A stretch of 25,626 nucleotides of DNA from a virus: positions 1 through 25,626 of IMG/VR virus record IMGVR_UViG_3300025133_000545. One strand, given 5' to 3'. How positions within the stretch are numbered: position 1 is the stretch's first letter; every line of letters begins with the position of its first letter. Position numbers and translations under genes: made by a program. Under the pieces are notes generated by a model, which saw only the letters and a list, made by a program, of their open reading frames with translations, had not been told where the DNA came from and did not search any database. Below, one piece after another: positions 3,261 to 15,457 of this stretch.

Positions 3261-6200
3261 TTAGTATAGCTCTTGTTGTAATTTTAATAGATTATCTTCC
3301 GTCAATAAACTATTGCGATCCCACGCCAAACTTCTACCAAAATTGTCAGATGTCAATTTGACAGCTACAATTTTACCGGGAACCAATTCATCTTCGCAAT
3401 ATTGCAATTTATTATGCCACACTCTAAAACTACTGCCATCTTCTGCTCTTACGTTCGCATATGGTTTACCCTTCTTTGTCTTTAGTTTCTCTACCGTGCT
3501 AATCTTTGTCCAAAAGTGCCGCGAGTTTTCTTCCTCTTCATCATATTCAGATATGTGTTGAAACTCTAAATGATTTACAAGTTCCGTCATCATCTTCAAT
3601 CTCTCTACATTTTCCGACACTCTGAATCCGACAAACTCTAACTCAAAATTAACTAACTCTTTTTCCGTATACTCTTCCATAGGAATTTTAAAGGTATCCA
3701 ATAATGCCGGTATATACTTACCCGAAATCAAATCATTAAACTGTATGCCCTCATCGTCAAATAATTTAACCATTAATGTCTTAAAGTTCTTCTTGGTCTG
3801 TAAGGTAAAAGTATTATACACATCCATAATATCACATAATGCTTTTCGCGTGTATTCTTTTCCACAAAACAGCAACCCATCAAACAACCCCAACTGAATC
3901 AATACTTTTAGACCATTGTGAGGAATCATCTTTAATTCCAAATTGTCTCTATAAAATTCTGTAAAGTCGAGCCATCCAGAACCAAAAGGTCTATTCTTTT
4001 CTATCTTGTTTAATACACTATCACCTAAACCTTTTATGTTTTTTAACCCAATAGTAATGTTATCTTTTGTCACTGAAAATTGCTTTGAGAAAGTATTAAT
4101 GTCTCCCACACTTACTACAGGGTTATCCAACAATTTTCTACCCATTGTCAACCCTAAGGCAATCTCTTCGTGTTGCCCTGTATGACTATTCAACATAACC
4201 TCTGTAAACTCTGCCGGATACTTTGCCTTGAAATAACTAGTCCAATAAGCCAAAATACTATAACTAATCGCATGTGACTTATTAAACAAATAACCCGCAT
4301 TGTCAATCAACTTCTTAGCCACTGCTTTAGTATCTTCTAAAGGCAATAACATTTTTTCTGGATGCGGATATAAGTGCTCTTCCAAATATGCATTACACTT
4401 TTTATAATCCAACCCTTCCGCGATCTTTCTAAGAATATCGCCCTGTCCAAAATTCAAACCAAGAAGATTAAACATCTGAATAAACTGCTCTTGGTAAATC
4501 ATAATGTTTTCAGTTGGCGCCAAAACATCATCAAACAATGCATGATGATCATTCTTTGATTCTTCTTGACCATTTCTTCTACGAAGAAACGCTTCGGTTG
4601 CACCTAACTTAATGACGCCAGGACGATATATTGCATTTACTGCCGCAATGTCTTCCACATTTCGTGGAACCATCTTCTGTAAGCATCTTGTTATGTTGGC
4701 TCCACCAAACTGAAACACTCCATAGGTATCACCTTCACACAATAACTCATACGCCTTATCGTAATATTTCTGTTCTTCTTCATCTAAATCTTCTCTATCA
4801 ATCGACATTCTATAAATCTCATCAATCGTTATGCCGACTTTCTTCATTACTTCCATTATAACTGATAAAGTCGAAAGACCCAACATATCAATCTTAAGAA
4901 ACTTCATACTAGCTAACTCATCAATCTGCCACTCTGTAACCAAATCACCTTCTTTTGATTTCCTCAATGGCATTACATCATACAGCGGTTGTGACGATAT
5001 AATCACCCCGCCGCCGGCAATTGTTTGATTTCTTATATTACCAATTAATGTATCAATTGTTGTAATAAAATCTTGCCCTTCCTTTTTATCCAAAGATTCC
5101 ACAAAGCCTCTTACTTCTGAATTACTATTCATCAAATCAGTAAACGAAGTTAAATCTTTATTTAGCGAAATATGTCCGCTTATTGTTTTTGCAATCTTGT
5201 TAGAAAGTTTGAAGTCAATACCTTTATCTTTTGCCAGATCGCGAAACAAAGTATTAACAGAATAGCGGGAATAGGCACAAACAGAAGCAATATTAGCGTC
5301 GCCCCACTTGGAGGCCACATAGCTTTTAACATCCGCTCTACGGTTGTCTTGGAAATCATTGTCAATGTCGGGCTCCTTAATTCTTTCCGGATTCATAAAT
5401 CGCTCAAAGAATAAGTCATATTTAATTGGATCTAAATGCGTAATACCCAACAGCCAACAAATTAACGAGCCACTTGCACTGCCACGCCCTGGCGACATAA
5501 GTATGTCATTCTCATATGCCCATTGTGTAAAATCATTTGTTATAAGGAAATAGTCTATATAACCCTTATCTGCAATCAAATCTAACTCTATTTTTAGTCT
5601 ATCTACATACTTCGGAATATCTTCTTCAACAATAAGTTTATCCCTTACCTTATCAGCCATTCCTTTTTGTAAGAGATTTAACATATACTCTTTATTGTCT
5701 TTAAAAGTGGATGGTGTCGGAAACTTGGGTTCCTTAACAGTTTCTGTATCAAGCTCGGCATGGCATCTAGAAGCTATTTCTTTTGTGCTTTCTATACCTT
5801 CATACAGATATTCATCCTCAATAATGTCACCCATACCTGCATCATACCACTTTTGTATCATCTCTTCTTCTGTGGCAAAATGTAGCTTATCTATACCCGC
5901 TTCATCAAACGAAGTATTCATTCGATATAAAAAGTTGTGAGTTTCGTGATGGTTTTCATCCACATAATGCGTGTCATTAGCGAGTAAGCACTTTACATCA
6001 TACTTCTTGCGGAATACCTCAATAAGCACTTGGTTATATTCCCGCTGCATATCCAAGTCATGAGGATGTAGCTCAATAAAAAAGTTGTCTTTACCAAAAA
6101 TGCCAAGCATATCCTCAAACCACACACTCATATCATCTATCTTATGGTTTTGCAACATTCGAGCCATTGGAGAAATAACACAAGTAGTAGTCGCGATGAT

Positions 6201-6659
6201 GCCTTTATTGTATTGACGAAGTAAGTCTAGGTCAATACTGGGTTTAGAATAAAACCCCTCCGTATTAGCAAGATAGTTTAGCTTGTATAGGTTTCCCAAC
6301 CCTTCCTGCGTTTCCGCCAACAACAGCAGGTGTGCCTTGCGCATACGCTGCTTACCCTCTTCTCTTATCTCCGTAGCGGTTTTACCTTCTTTTTCTGCAT
6401 CCGTAAGCCCACGCTGGTGTCTATCTGCTGTAAAATACATTTCGTTGCCAAGAATGATTTTGGTGCCGGTTTTCCTACCCGCTTCCGTGAAAGAATAATG
6501 GCTGGCACACGATCCGTGTTCTGTGACTGATAATGCTTCTTGCGAAATGTTTGCAGCCTTTTCACAATAGTCAATGGGTTTACCCACACCATCGAGCAGG
6601 CTGCCGAAGGAAGAATGGAGGTGGAGATGCGAAAAAGTGGTGACAGCTCTATTACTCAA
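3261..6659 (-). CDS. dnaE: DNA polymerase III alpha subunit (DnaE-type) with PHP domain
   Basis: 1132 aa, close to the usual DnaE length (about 1160). The N-terminal PHP domain keeps metal-ligand motifs: HLHLHS (11-16), TEHGS (46-50), GNE (71-73), ELHPHD (196-201) and NDTHY (228-232). The polymerase palm has PGRGSASGS (390-398), PDIDNDF (430-436, catalytic D431/D433) and KIDMLGL (third Asp at 591). FNKSHAISY (792-800) is the family's conserved loop, and an OB-fold-like region (KLKTKKGKPYANVR) lies near 1060-1110. This is the phage replicative polymerase; most T4-like phages use family B instead. Start is TTG behind AGAGGA with 7-base spacing. A dedicated promoter sits at 6690-6718. No separate proofreading exonuclease gene is visible; the intact PHP site may supply that activity (inference). 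Confidence 0.95.
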   Translation of the reverse strand: MSNRAVTTFSHLHLHSSFGSLLDGVGKPIDYCEKAANISQEALSVTEHGSCASHYSFTEAGRKTGTKIILGNEMYFTADRHQRGLTDAEKEGKTATEIREEGKQRMRKAHLLLLAETQEGLGNLYKLNYLANTEGFYSKPSIDLDLLRQYNKGIIATTTCVISPMARMLQNHKIDDMSVWFEDMLGIFGKDNFFIELHPHDLDMQREYNQVLIEVFRKKYDVKCLLANDTHYVDENHHETHNFLYRMNTSFDEAGIDKLHFATEEEMIQKWYDAGMGDIIEDEYLYEGIESTKEIASRCHAELDTETVKEPKFPTPSTFKDNKEYMLNLLQKGMADKVRDKLIVEEDIPKYVDRLKIELDLIADKGYIDYFLITNDFTQWAYENDILMSPGRGSASGSLICWLLGITHLDPIKYDLFFERFMNPERIKEPDIDNDFQDNRRADVKSYVASKWGDANIASVCAYSRYSVNTLFRDLAKDKGIDFKLSNKIAKTISGHISLNKDLTSFTDLMNSNSEVRGFVESLDKKEGQDFITTIDTLIGNIRNQTIAGGGVIISSQPLYDVMPLRKSKEGDLVTEWQIDELASMKFLKIDMLGLSTLSVIMEVMKKVGITIDEIYRMSIDREDLDEEEQKYYDKAYELLCEGDTYGVFQFGGANITRCLQKMVPRNVEDIAAVNAIYRPGVIKLGATEAFLRRRNGQEESKNDHHALFDDVLAPTENIMIYQEQFIQMFNLLGLNFGQGDILRKIAEGLDYKKCNAYLEEHLYPHPEKMLLPLEDTKAVAKKLIDNAGYLFNKSHAISYSILAYWTSYFKAKYPAEFTEVMLNSHTGQHEEIALGLTMGRKLLDNPVVSVGDINTFSKQFSVTKDNITIGLKNIKGLGDSVLNKIEKNRPFGSGWLDFTEFYRDNLELKMIPHNGLKVLIQLGLFDGLLFCGKEYTRKALCDIMDVYNTFTLQTKKNFKTLMVKLFDDEGIQFNDLISGKYIPALLDTFKIPMEEYTEKELVNFELEFVGFRVSENVERLKMMTELVNHLEFQHISEYDEEEENSRHFWTKISTVEKLKTKKGKPYANVRAEDGSSFRVWHNKLQYCEDELVPGKIVAVKLTSDNFGRSLAWDRNSLLTEDNLLKLQQELY

Positions 6660-12989: not shown

Positions 12990-13046
12990 TTATTTTCCTC
13001 TATTACGTTGCCCAAACCAAATAATACGGCGCCTTCGTTTTGACAT
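12990..13046 (-). CDS. 18-residue basic leader-like ORF
   Basis: ATG at 13046 with AGGAG seven bases upstream, encoding 18 residues with an arginine-rich start (MSKRRRR) and ending in TAA. It is the first start after the promoter at 13106-13134, and its last codons carry the ribosome-binding site of the exonuclease gene three bases on. It may be a real micropeptide or a translated leader that couples exonuclease expression. Not recognised. Confidence 0.45.
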   Translation of the reverse strand: MSKRRRRIIWFGQRNRGK

Positions 13047-13056
13047 TTTAAGTCTC

Positions 13057-13302
13057 CTACCACATTACCATACGCGTAAAAAGCCTCTTTGTGATCATTC
13101 TATAAAATATAACCAATTCTCTCCAATTTGTCAAGGACTCTTTTCGTTCTACTAACGATTCTTTTTCCCGCATTTTGGCTAGCCTAATTGCCCATCTTTG
13201 CTGTCTTAAAATGCTTAATTTGGAGCCACCTGTCTGCCAAACAGAGTGATCTACAAAAATCCAAAACCAAATCCTAAGTGTGATTAACATAATAAAAACC
13301 AT
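13057..13302 (-). CDS. possible small membrane-anchored protein
   Basis: 81 aa. A hydrophobic, aromatic N-terminus (MVFIMLITLRIWFWIFV) could be one membrane helix, followed by a basic, helical remainder (RQQRWAIRLAKMREKESLVE). It fills the gap between the lipoprotein gene and the replication operon. The stop codon overlaps the Shine-Dalgarno of the 18-aa ORF, a normal arrangement here. Against it, no ribosome-binding site is visible before the ATG and a strong promoter lies inside its 3' half. Not recognised. Confidence 0.5.
   Translation of the reverse strand: MVFIMLITLRIWFWIFVDHSVWQTGGSKLSILRQQRWAIRLAKMREKESLVERKESLTNWRELVIFYRMITKRLFTRMVMW
13106..13134 (-). promoter_or_regulatory. sigma70-like promoter for the replication operon
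   Basis: Minus strand: TTGACA (13129-13134), 17-bp spacer, TATATT (13106-13111). It is embedded in the reading frame at 13057-13302 and would drive the 18-aa ORF, exonuclease, helicase and probably the genes on to nrdJ and dCMP deaminase. Confidence 0.8.
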
Positions 13303-13814: not shown

Positions 13815-14367
13815 AATCTAACCTTCTTAATGATGCGTCATTATACTTGTATGGCTCAACACCAGGCGTTTCTAAAATATCAATACGATTTATCCAGCGC
13901 CGGGCCATCGTATCGCGGACTTGGTAAACTCCAGACTTCTTACCCGCATCCACCCACACATAATCACCATATTTAAGGAACCCCCCATAACGTACAAGCA
14001 TATTCCGTGAAACCGCAACATATCTATATTCACTTGCCTTACTTATTTTAATTACACTTCCATCGGCCGTAATGTTTGGTGTATCATCAGTTTGATCTGC
14101 AACAGGATGATACATTGTTACGACTACTTGATGCTTATTATTCTCGTACTCTTCTATCTTTTTTTCTTTTACTGCTAGCTTTCTAGCTAACTCTAAACCT
14201 CTTATTGTAGTATCTAATATTAATGAATCAGCTACCGAAACCATTCTCTCCATCAATAAATTTTCTTCTTTAAGTGTATCAATTTCATTTTTCTTTTCTA
14301 TACTATGTGTAGTAAAAACCACCAATAGAAGAAGAATAGCTACGGTTTTCACTTTCTCTCTCTGCAC
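13795..14367 (-). CDS. membrane-anchored 3D-domain (double-psi beta-barrel) protein
   Basis: 190 aa. An N-terminal membrane helix (VAILLLLVVFTT, about 9-20) is followed by a coiled-coil stretch (KNEIDTLKEENLLMERM to about 75), then a C-terminal domain: TMYHP (84-88), TADGS (100-104), YVAVSRNML (116-124), GGFLKYGDYVWVD (128-140), DTMARR (152-157), RIDIL (161-165). This is the pattern of 3D or MltA/RlpA-like double-psi barrels, with Asp residues at 102, 152 and 163. Such domains act on or bind peptidoglycan, so the periplasm is the likely location. GTG 14367 has GGGG eight bases upstream; GTG 14352 is an alternative. The gene lies just after tRNA-Gln and overlaps the lipoprotein gene. The 103 bases before it show only weak promoter-like sequence. 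Confidence 0.7.
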   Translation of the reverse strand: MQREKVKTVAILLLLVVFTTHSIEKKNEIDTLKEENLLMERMVSVADSLILDTTIRGLELARKLAVKEKKIEEYENNKHQVVVTMYHPVADQTDDTPNITADGSVIKISKASEYRYVAVSRNMLVRYGGFLKYGDYVWVDAGKKSGVYQVRDTMARRWINRIDILETPGVEPYKYNDASLRRLDYVSENL

Positions 14368-14470
14368 TTTATTTACCCCGATAATATAAATACTGCATGA
14401 AAAAATTATAAAAATACACTATCATTTAAAAATATTTAAATTCATGTTTGGGAAAATTTTTTGGAAGGGG

Positions 14471-14546
14471 TGGCTGGGCTGTAGCGACTCGAACGCTAAT
14501 CTGCAAGATCCAAAATCTTGTGTATTACCAATTATACGACAGCCCA
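14471..14546 (-). tRNA. tRNA-Gln(TTG)
   Basis: 76 bases including an encoded CCA. Acceptor stem TGGGCTG/CAGCCCA with discriminator G, D arm GTAT/ATAC, anticodon stem CAAGA/TCTTG with loop TTTTGGA (anticodon TTG, reads CAA), T arm TAGCG/CGCTA with canonical TTCGAGT loop. The first 34-35 bases are duplicated at 15190-15223 on the far side of a GC-rich insert. Confidence 0.95.
14512..14545 (-). repeat. direct repeat, copy 1: 5' half of tRNA-Gln
   Basis: 34 bases, 33 identical to 15190-15223; the only difference is at 14538 against 15216. The repeat covers the acceptor 5' strand, D arm and anticodon 5' stem and stops within the anticodon loop. Confidence 0.95.
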
Positions 14547-14644
14547 AAAACTCATACTTTATGCAACAAACTTAGCTGAATCAAACCCTAAAGAAAGAAA
14601 ACTACTCCCAACCAGAACGCAGATGATGAGGGTTGTGAGTTCAC

Positions 14645-15163
14645 TCATCCTTCCCTTCCCGGCGCTCGGGAGACGGGATCCCACCAAGGTCGATGCATCG
14701 GACTTGTCTTCCCGGCGCTCGGATCAAGTGGGCATTCGCCGGGACCATGAGCGTTGACTGCGCCACACATGCCACATTCCTCGGCGCTTACGCCAGCCAG
14801 TTCGTCGGCCCGGGCTCGATCGACTACGGCAGCCAGTTCGTCGGCCCACTCCTCAATTATCCCCTCACACCCTCCCCAATCTCCGTACTTTTCCTCCCGC
14901 ATCTCCTTCACCACCCGCGCTGCCGCTGTGCGGAGGGCTTTGATTTCCGCTTGATCGCGTTTATATCCAGCACACATGGTTTCAAACTCTTTTGTGCGGG
15001 TATACAATGCCCCCCGTGCCTCGGCCAGCTTACGGGTCTGTGCGTCGTAGGCCAGACGCAAGTTGTTGGCGCGGTCGTTGGCCTCGGCCAATTCCCGCCT
15101 TGTGGAGTTCAATTCTACTCCCAGATCGGCAATCTCCAGCCGTAGATCAGATTCAAGTTTCAT
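14645..15163 (-). CDS. GC-rich foreign ORF: coiled coil plus zinc-knuckle-like motif
   Basis: 172 aa, not recognised as a family. Residues 1-75 are a clear coiled coil (ESDLRLEIADLGVELNSTRR and so on), followed by an alanine- and glutamate-rich region with a 12-residue near repeat (WADELAAVVDRA / RADELAGVSAEE). A compact C-x2-C-x5-H-x4-C cluster (C130, C133, H139, C144) resembles a zinc knuckle, so nucleic-acid binding is possible. The tail is rich in P, R and W. Codons end mostly in G or C, unlike every other gene here, which shows recent acquisition from a GC-rich source, perhaps another phage. ATG start with a modest AGGGA upstream. It lies between tRNA-Gln and a copy of that tRNA's 5' half. 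Confidence 0.75.
   Translation of the reverse strand: MKLESDLRLEIADLGVELNSTRRELAEANDRANNLRLAYDAQTRKLAEARGALYTRTKEFETMCAGYKRDQAEIKALRTAAARVVKEMREEKYGDWGGCEGIIEEWADELAAVVDRARADELAGVSAEECGMCGAVNAHGPGECPLDPSAGKTSPMHRPWWDPVSRAPGREG
14655..14722. repeat. 15-bp direct repeat in the GC-rich ORF
   Basis: cttcccggcgctcgg occurs at 14655-14669 and 14708-14722. The 53-base offset is not a multiple of three, so the copies are read in different frames and the repeat is at DNA level. Confidence 0.85.
14794..14847. repeat. 18-bp direct repeat in the GC-rich ORF
   Basis: cagccagttcgtcggccc occurs at 14794-14811 and 14830-14847. The 36-base offset keeps the frame and encodes the repeated ADELA peptide. Confidence 0.85.
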
Positions 15164-15189
15164 ATCGTCCCTGTCATTTTTCCTATAAA

Positions 15190-15223
15190 AAAATCTTGTG
15201 TATTACCAATTATACAACAGCCC
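15190..15223 (-). repeat. direct repeat, copy 2: orphan 5' half of tRNA-Gln
   Basis: Matches 14512-14545 at 33 of 34 bases. No tRNA 3' half follows, so this copy cannot make a tRNA. It supplies the last codons and the stop of the HNH remnant frame. Confidence 0.95.
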
Positions 15224-15383
15224 TATAATAGCCGAATTGTTCTGCTGTATGCTTCGCATGGCAGTTGGCGCATAGCACTTCACACTTCGCGGCTTCCTCT
15301 TTAACTTTAACCAAAGATTTAGAATCACATATCAATAAGGTTTTCATTATTACCCAAGAGTGAAAACTTATATGGGAAAAACT
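15210..15383 (-). pseudogene. C-terminal remnant of an HNH (homing-type) endonuclease
   Basis: An open frame runs from directly after the tRNA-Glu 3' end to a stop inside the tRNA-Gln half repeat. It contains a 45-codon ORF from ATG 15347, which has only a weak GGGTAA upstream. The motif KEEAAKCEVLCANCHAKHT is the typical second half of HNH nucleases, with the C-x2-C zinc pair and terminal His. The first half, with the other zinc cysteines and the catalytic His and Asn, is missing. The remnant begins where the tRNA-Glu ends, suggesting a deletion or recombination that joined the two. The last codons (RAVV, stop) come from tRNA-Gln sequence. It is probably not an active nuclease. Confidence 0.7.
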
Positions 15384-15384
15384 C

Positions 15385-15457
15385 TACTCCCAACGGGGCA
15401 CGATCCCGTACTTTTGCCGTGAAAGGGCAATGTTCTAACCGATTAAACTATGGGAGC
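15385..15457 (-). tRNA. tRNA-Glu(TTC)
   Basis: 73 bases without encoded CCA. Acceptor stem GCTCCCA/TGGGAGT (first pair G.U) and discriminator A, D arm GTTT/GAAC, anticodon stem TTGCC/GGCAA with loop CTTTCAC (anticodon TTC), variable loop AAGT, T stem ACGGG/CCCGT. The T loop is ATCGTGC, with the usual T54 and A58 exchanged. The 5' base coincides with the last base of the stop codon of the upstream membrane-protein gene. Confidence 0.85.

Follow-up and report, generated by a model that had tools for sequence, protein, structure and literature searches.

The window analysed here is a 25,626-base virus record (IMGVR_UViG_3300025133_000545) from an uncultured phage, and its minus strand carries replication and nucleotide genes encoding a DnaB-like helicase, an exonuclease, RecA/UvsX, thymidylate synthase and ribonucleotide reductase. 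The tRNA locus of this phage, described throughout along the minus strand on which all of its features lie, reads tRNA-Glu, HNH endonuclease gene remnant, half tRNA-Gln, GC-rich ORF, tRNA-Glu end, 50-nt spacer and tRNA-Gln. ARAGORN called an intact tRNA-Glu (TTC) at 15385-15457 and an intact tRNA-Gln (TTG) at 14471-14546, the latter identical to the copy of L003 at 75 of 76 positions. The two tRNA genes also adjoin each other in relatives, where their pairing is conserved, but the whole arrangement seen in the window was found in one contig only.

Comparison with relatives, collected through RecA (55 loci), revealed variation at this position. In four of them (L002, L003, L004 and L007), only 4-8 bp lie between tRNA-Glu and tRNA-Gln, so the window has gained DNA; the insertion and the empty site postulated in the initial annotation are thus both found. 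The sister phage L002 has 4 bp between its tRNA genes and no insert, with about 98% identity to the window on both flanks and 97-100% around most of the locus. Relative to the empty sites, the extra DNA spans 14547-15384 and is composite, starting at 15384 rather than at 15189, and the HNH remnant and the tRNA-Glu 3' end that form its outer parts can both be recognised as phage DNA. Identity to L002 falls locally at tRNA-Gln and at about 14200-14500, and the window locus accordingly looks, on its sequence, like a recombinant patch; further local dips elsewhere, such as 13000-13299, are those expected of a mosaic phage. The tRNA content of the locus among relatives is none, Glu, Glu+Gln or Glu+Val+Gln. 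In L028, a tRNA-Val (4678-4754) stands between tRNA-Glu and tRNA-Gln, and tRNAs have therefore been gained at the locus as well. Two contigs of close relatives (L141 and L142) have their position 1 a few bases past tRNA-Gln, at about window position 14450, which suggests that assemblies break there owing to a population that is mixed at the locus.

The first 160 bp of the gain (15225-15384) are a decayed free-standing HNH endonuclease gene with its leader, recognized by blastn against the loci of relatives, by the sequences themselves and by protein alignment (SKSLVKVKEEAAKCEVLCANCHAKHTAEQFGYYRAVV). Positions 15384-15329 match the HNH leader of L005 at 92% over 53 bp, and positions 15316-15225 match the C-terminal coding part of the L006 HNH gene at 84% over 92 bp. 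The window copy lacks the middle of the gene, about 325 bp, and contains no intact gene; judged by this sequence, it is dead. Intact HNH ORFs of about 140 aa lie exactly between tRNA-Glu and tRNA-Gln in L005 and L006 and match phrog_2255 at E values of 4e-35 and 2e-27, respectively, while the Pfam HNH model scored them below its cut-off. The gene is optional at the site, being present in L005, L006 and L153 and absent from the four relatives with an empty site; in L153 (1-508) it occupies the homologous place with no tRNA-Gln behind it.

The orphan 5' half of tRNA-Gln (15190-15224), identified by repeat search, by tRNA alignment and by the end of the L006 ORF, directly follows the HNH remnant, as the intact tRNA-Gln follows the HNH gene in L006. 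Since the HNH frame stops inside tRNA-Gln in L006 and inside the orphan half in the window, the orphan is most simply read as the tRNA-Gln that formerly followed the HNH gene. The initial annotation had reported a 34-bp direct repeat of the tRNA-Gln 5' half that ends at the anticodon loop, and this description holds. The copies at 14512-14545 and 15190-15223 are identical at 33 of 34 positions, a figure that omits the first base of the 34-35 nt copy at 15224-15190, and they lie at a spacing of 678; when extended, the repeat reaches 39 nt at 92%. On its inner side, the repeat stops at tRNA position 35, within the anticodon. An alignment with the tRNA-Gln genes of 14 relatives assigned the sole mismatch to a C-to-T change in the orphan copy: because the position is C in the intact tRNA-Gln of the window and in 13 of the 14 relatives, G in the divergent tRNA-Gln of L028 and T in none, the change belongs to the orphan. 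The mismatch had earlier been taken as a sign that an element brought its own tRNA copy, but a change private to the orphan does not point to an imported attachment site. The tRNA-Gln genes fall into two sequence types, one shared by the window and L003 and the other found in L002, and these types do not track flank relatedness.

The two repeat copies enclose 643 bp of GC-rich DNA with one ORF, again as the initial annotation described. G+C content is 55% over 14547-15189 and 58.6% over 14613-15163, whereas the window as a whole has 37.9% and the richest 550 bp elsewhere in it no more than 48%. Within this interval, the filler proper (14618-15189), considered foreign on its composition and yielding no credible match in phages, plasmids or viral and genome contigs, is GC-rich from 15163 down and is preceded by a short AT-rich leader. 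Its left joint has no copy elsewhere in viral contigs, and the suggestion that the cassette might recur in other phages found no support, as searches of phage, plasmid, viral and genome contigs returned no second copy. The initial annotation had further named, as outcomes against an insertion, a GC-rich ORF shared by relatives or a longer GC-rich block in them; the ORF is absent from every relative at the locus, and no larger block was found.

Only one credible ORF was recognized in the GC-rich DNA (14645-15163, minus strand, 172 aa). Its product has no credible relative in Pfam, PHROGs, NCBIfam or phage and plasmid records (tblastn to E 10), and none in viral or genome contigs by an exact short peptide search, which distant relatives could escape. 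AlphaFold2, run on the single sequence with no alignment, modelled a long helix over residues 2-90 and a low-confidence, disordered C-terminal tail, a model that is no help for function. Inspection by eye found a CX2CX5HX4C motif in the C-terminal part, which is possibly zinc-binding, and the ORF may be a passenger. A plus-strand ORF of 150 aa (14693-15145) also has a gene-like codon-position GC, yet it was set aside because its direction is opposite to that of the annotated neighbours and the encoded protein does not look like a natural one. The 172-aa ORF also contains short direct repeats of 20-23 nt at 90-96% identity (14789-14811/14825-14847 and 14650-14669/14703-14722), suggestive of recent internal duplications.

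At the far joint, the GC-rich part stops at about 14617, exactly where TTCTGGTTGGGAGTAGTTTTC (14617-14597) begins. This segment corresponds to a tRNA-Glu 3' end followed by spacer (TTCTGGTTGGGAGTA + GTTTTC): its first 15 nt are identical to the tRNA-Glu end of L024, and its last 15 nt to the tRNA-Glu end of L038 together with the spacer. The remnant matches the window's own tRNA-Glu over 11 nt, a length reached in none of 3000 dinucleotide shuffles. The same 21 nt also fall in a frame of 29 codons whose start overlaps the stop codon of the 172-aa ORF (ATGA), and for this reason the remnant could be partly foreign coding DNA with a chance match to tRNA-Glu. Between it and the intact tRNA-Gln lies an AT-rich spacer of 50 nt (14547-14596), for which no match was found in relatives or viral contigs. 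The second Glu-Gln copy is thus partial, consisting of the tRNA-Glu end, spacer and full tRNA-Gln.

We surveyed the viral loci of the 80 best relatives of this HNH family. Same-strand tRNAs were found nearby in 31 of these loci, and in 18 the HNH homology ended at or inside a tRNA 5' end (tRNA start between -5 and +40 nt relative to the end of homology), compared with 2.3 on average and never more than 9 over 5000 trials of random placement; this control does not model gene order inside tRNA arrays, but the excess is still large. The pattern is a sign that genes of this HNH family end at tRNA genes family-wide. Among annotated phages, the HNH gene overlaps tRNA-Gly in crAss001 and tRNA-Met in Streptomyces phage Wofford. 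The free-standing HNH proteins concerned (crAss001 gp8 and Wofford gp171) share about 38-39% identity with the L006 HNH protein, and the 3' ends of their genes overlap a tRNA gene, as in L006. In contrast to the window, both look intact and have no orphan tRNA half with foreign DNA noted beside them. A reading of the paired tRNAs in these two phages as duplications around the HNH gene was rejected, since the two tRNA-Gly and the two tRNA-Met genes are dissimilar in sequence. A comparable orphan tRNA piece occurs among the best 80 HNH relatives in L085 only, where an intact tRNA-Trp (1383-1454) precedes an HNH gene of the same family and an exact copy of the 18-nt 3' end of that tRNA-Trp (1931-1948) lies directly behind it.

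Taken at face value, the layout of the window would mean that the Glu-Gln pair was duplicated in tandem, imperfectly and only in part, and that foreign DNA fills the new joint. The locus occurs as HNH-less, HNH-carrying and HNH-remnant alleles, the last with a partial second copy and foreign filler at its joint. We consider it somewhat probable that this phage tRNA pair is a hot spot for homing endonucleases and was remodelled by break-and-repair recombination, and the half tRNA is most likely a recombination scar and not the signature of an integrating element. According to this model, an HNH gene first entered the spacer of a few bases that separates the two tRNA genes in this phage group, as the comparison of alleles shows; in L006, the HNH 3' end runs into the 5' end of tRNA-Gln. 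The gene then lost its middle in the lineage of the window, a step visible in its product. A break in tRNA-Gln near the anticodon, placed there because the repeat ends at this point, would finally have been linked, with about 550 bp of unrelated GC-rich DNA in between, to the tRNA-Glu 3' end of another copy of the locus, carried by a sister genome or a co-infecting phage; the geometry of this joint is evident, and the mechanism is the conjectural part. The outcome would be Glu, HNH remnant and half Gln, then GC-rich DNA, then Glu end, spacer and Gln, leaving each tRNA with one intact copy.

The break was likely made by an HNH enzyme of the phrog_2255 family cutting the tRNA region, and its repair likely relied on the phage's own RecA-type recombination; we infer both the cut in tRNA-Gln as trigger and the joining of the pieces by phage recombination. 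Since the HNH gene of the window is dead, the cutting must date from an earlier time or be the work of an enzyme from another phage.

The nearest tested precedent, which the remodelling of the window resembles by analogy, appears to be SegB of T6. SegB brings about segmental amplification of a T6 tRNA locus through homologous recombination, and the joints lie at short shared sequences; its cuts have been mapped within tRNA genes, and amplification requires SegB nuclease activity together with phage UvsX and UvsY, recombination at the short shared sequences being probable (PMC13096335). As in T4 and T6, where SegB targets tRNA-containing DNA, a free-standing endonuclease gene is located among phage tRNA genes and recombination duplicates the tRNA locus, the cut and repair being presumptive in the window. 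Unlike the window gene, which is HNH (phrog_2255) and decayed, SegB is an active GIY-YIG enzyme; moreover, the window duplication is partial and its joint holds foreign DNA. Free-standing endonucleases and their homing have been reviewed (PMC2988022), and nuclease genes have been described at boundaries of phage gene exchange (PMC10448857). The parts of the window locus are of known kinds, whereas foreign DNA in a partial tRNA-pair duplication beside a dead HNH gene appears to be a new combination, which we did not find described in the open-paper literature searched.

Growth and decay of a tRNA array offers an alternative to which we assign a minor, although appreciable, chance. The GC-rich ORF would have been an ordinary gene between tRNAs in an ancestor with the order Glu-HNH-Gln-ORF-Glu-Gln, from which later deletions took away the first Gln's 3' half and the greater part of the second Glu, and no endonuclease cut would be needed. 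Small ORFs and repeated isotypes are common in phage tRNA arrays, crAss001 and Wofford being examples, and the locus itself varies in tRNA content among relatives, as described above. However, two Glu-Gln pairs occur in no relative and the GC-rich ORF is missing from all of them, while an orphan that ends inside the anticodon and keeps 33 of 34 identical positions makes the event look recent.

The initial annotation proposed a mobile or satellite-like cassette, and site-specific integration of a small cassette into the tRNA-Gln 5' half by a recombinase acting in trans seems unlikely to us. As in tRNA-integrated elements, the window has an intact tRNA at one end, a truncated direct repeat at the other and DNA of foreign composition between them, and sister phages have an empty site. 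In contrast to such elements, a phage tRNA-Glu end plus spacer is located inside, beside the intact tRNA-Gln, and the HNH remnant lies outside the truncated copy, with the orphan half directly following it just as tRNA-Gln follows the intact HNH gene of a relative. The mobile cassette is not supported. Neither a second copy of the cassette nor one of its left joint was found. No recombinase was detected in the element, as initially stated, or among 25 window proteins scanned against PHROGs, a set that excludes a DnaE-like ORF, some small ORFs and the genome beyond the window. The earlier reading is therefore partly supported, having seen a true insertion scar and misread its type. A metagenome assembly chimera, in which a GC-rich fragment was joined to the phage at the tRNA repeats, would account for the single contig and the 34-nt repeat at the joint, and assemblers do break just past tRNA-Gln in L141 and L142, but it is very improbable because a single sister phage matches the window on either side at about 98%, the joints are more than plain repeats in common (the left one passes from repeat into unique DNA), and the HNH and tRNA-Glu remnants would be left unexplained.

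Under the favoured break-and-repair reading, the locus provides a readable before-and-after series at one tRNA locus, from empty through HNH-occupied to decayed with partial duplication and filler, and with it a means of testing whether phage tRNA sets are shaped, and new genes admitted, by homing endonucleases. It also cautions against taking every half tRNA beside foreign DNA in a phage as the sign of an integrase element. A broader proposition, that this HNH family routinely cuts tRNA genes at the anticodon and that repair captures foreign genes and leaves orphan halves as scars, is doubtful at present; if true, homing endonucleases would make phage tRNA loci places where genes are captured, and the GC-rich ORF, possibly of use to the phage, would be one acquired recently.

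Two further observations concern this phage group. In L033, a 70-bp stretch (80%) from the end of the gene lying downstream of the tRNAs is repeated in inverted orientation upstream of tRNA-Glu (6279-6348), another rearrangement at the same tRNA locus. In the window, the minus-strand gene at 895-1338 encodes a 147-aa protein that matches phrog_9084 (homing endonuclease) and phrog_559 (HNH endonuclease) and is possibly the product of a second endonuclease gene of the phage.
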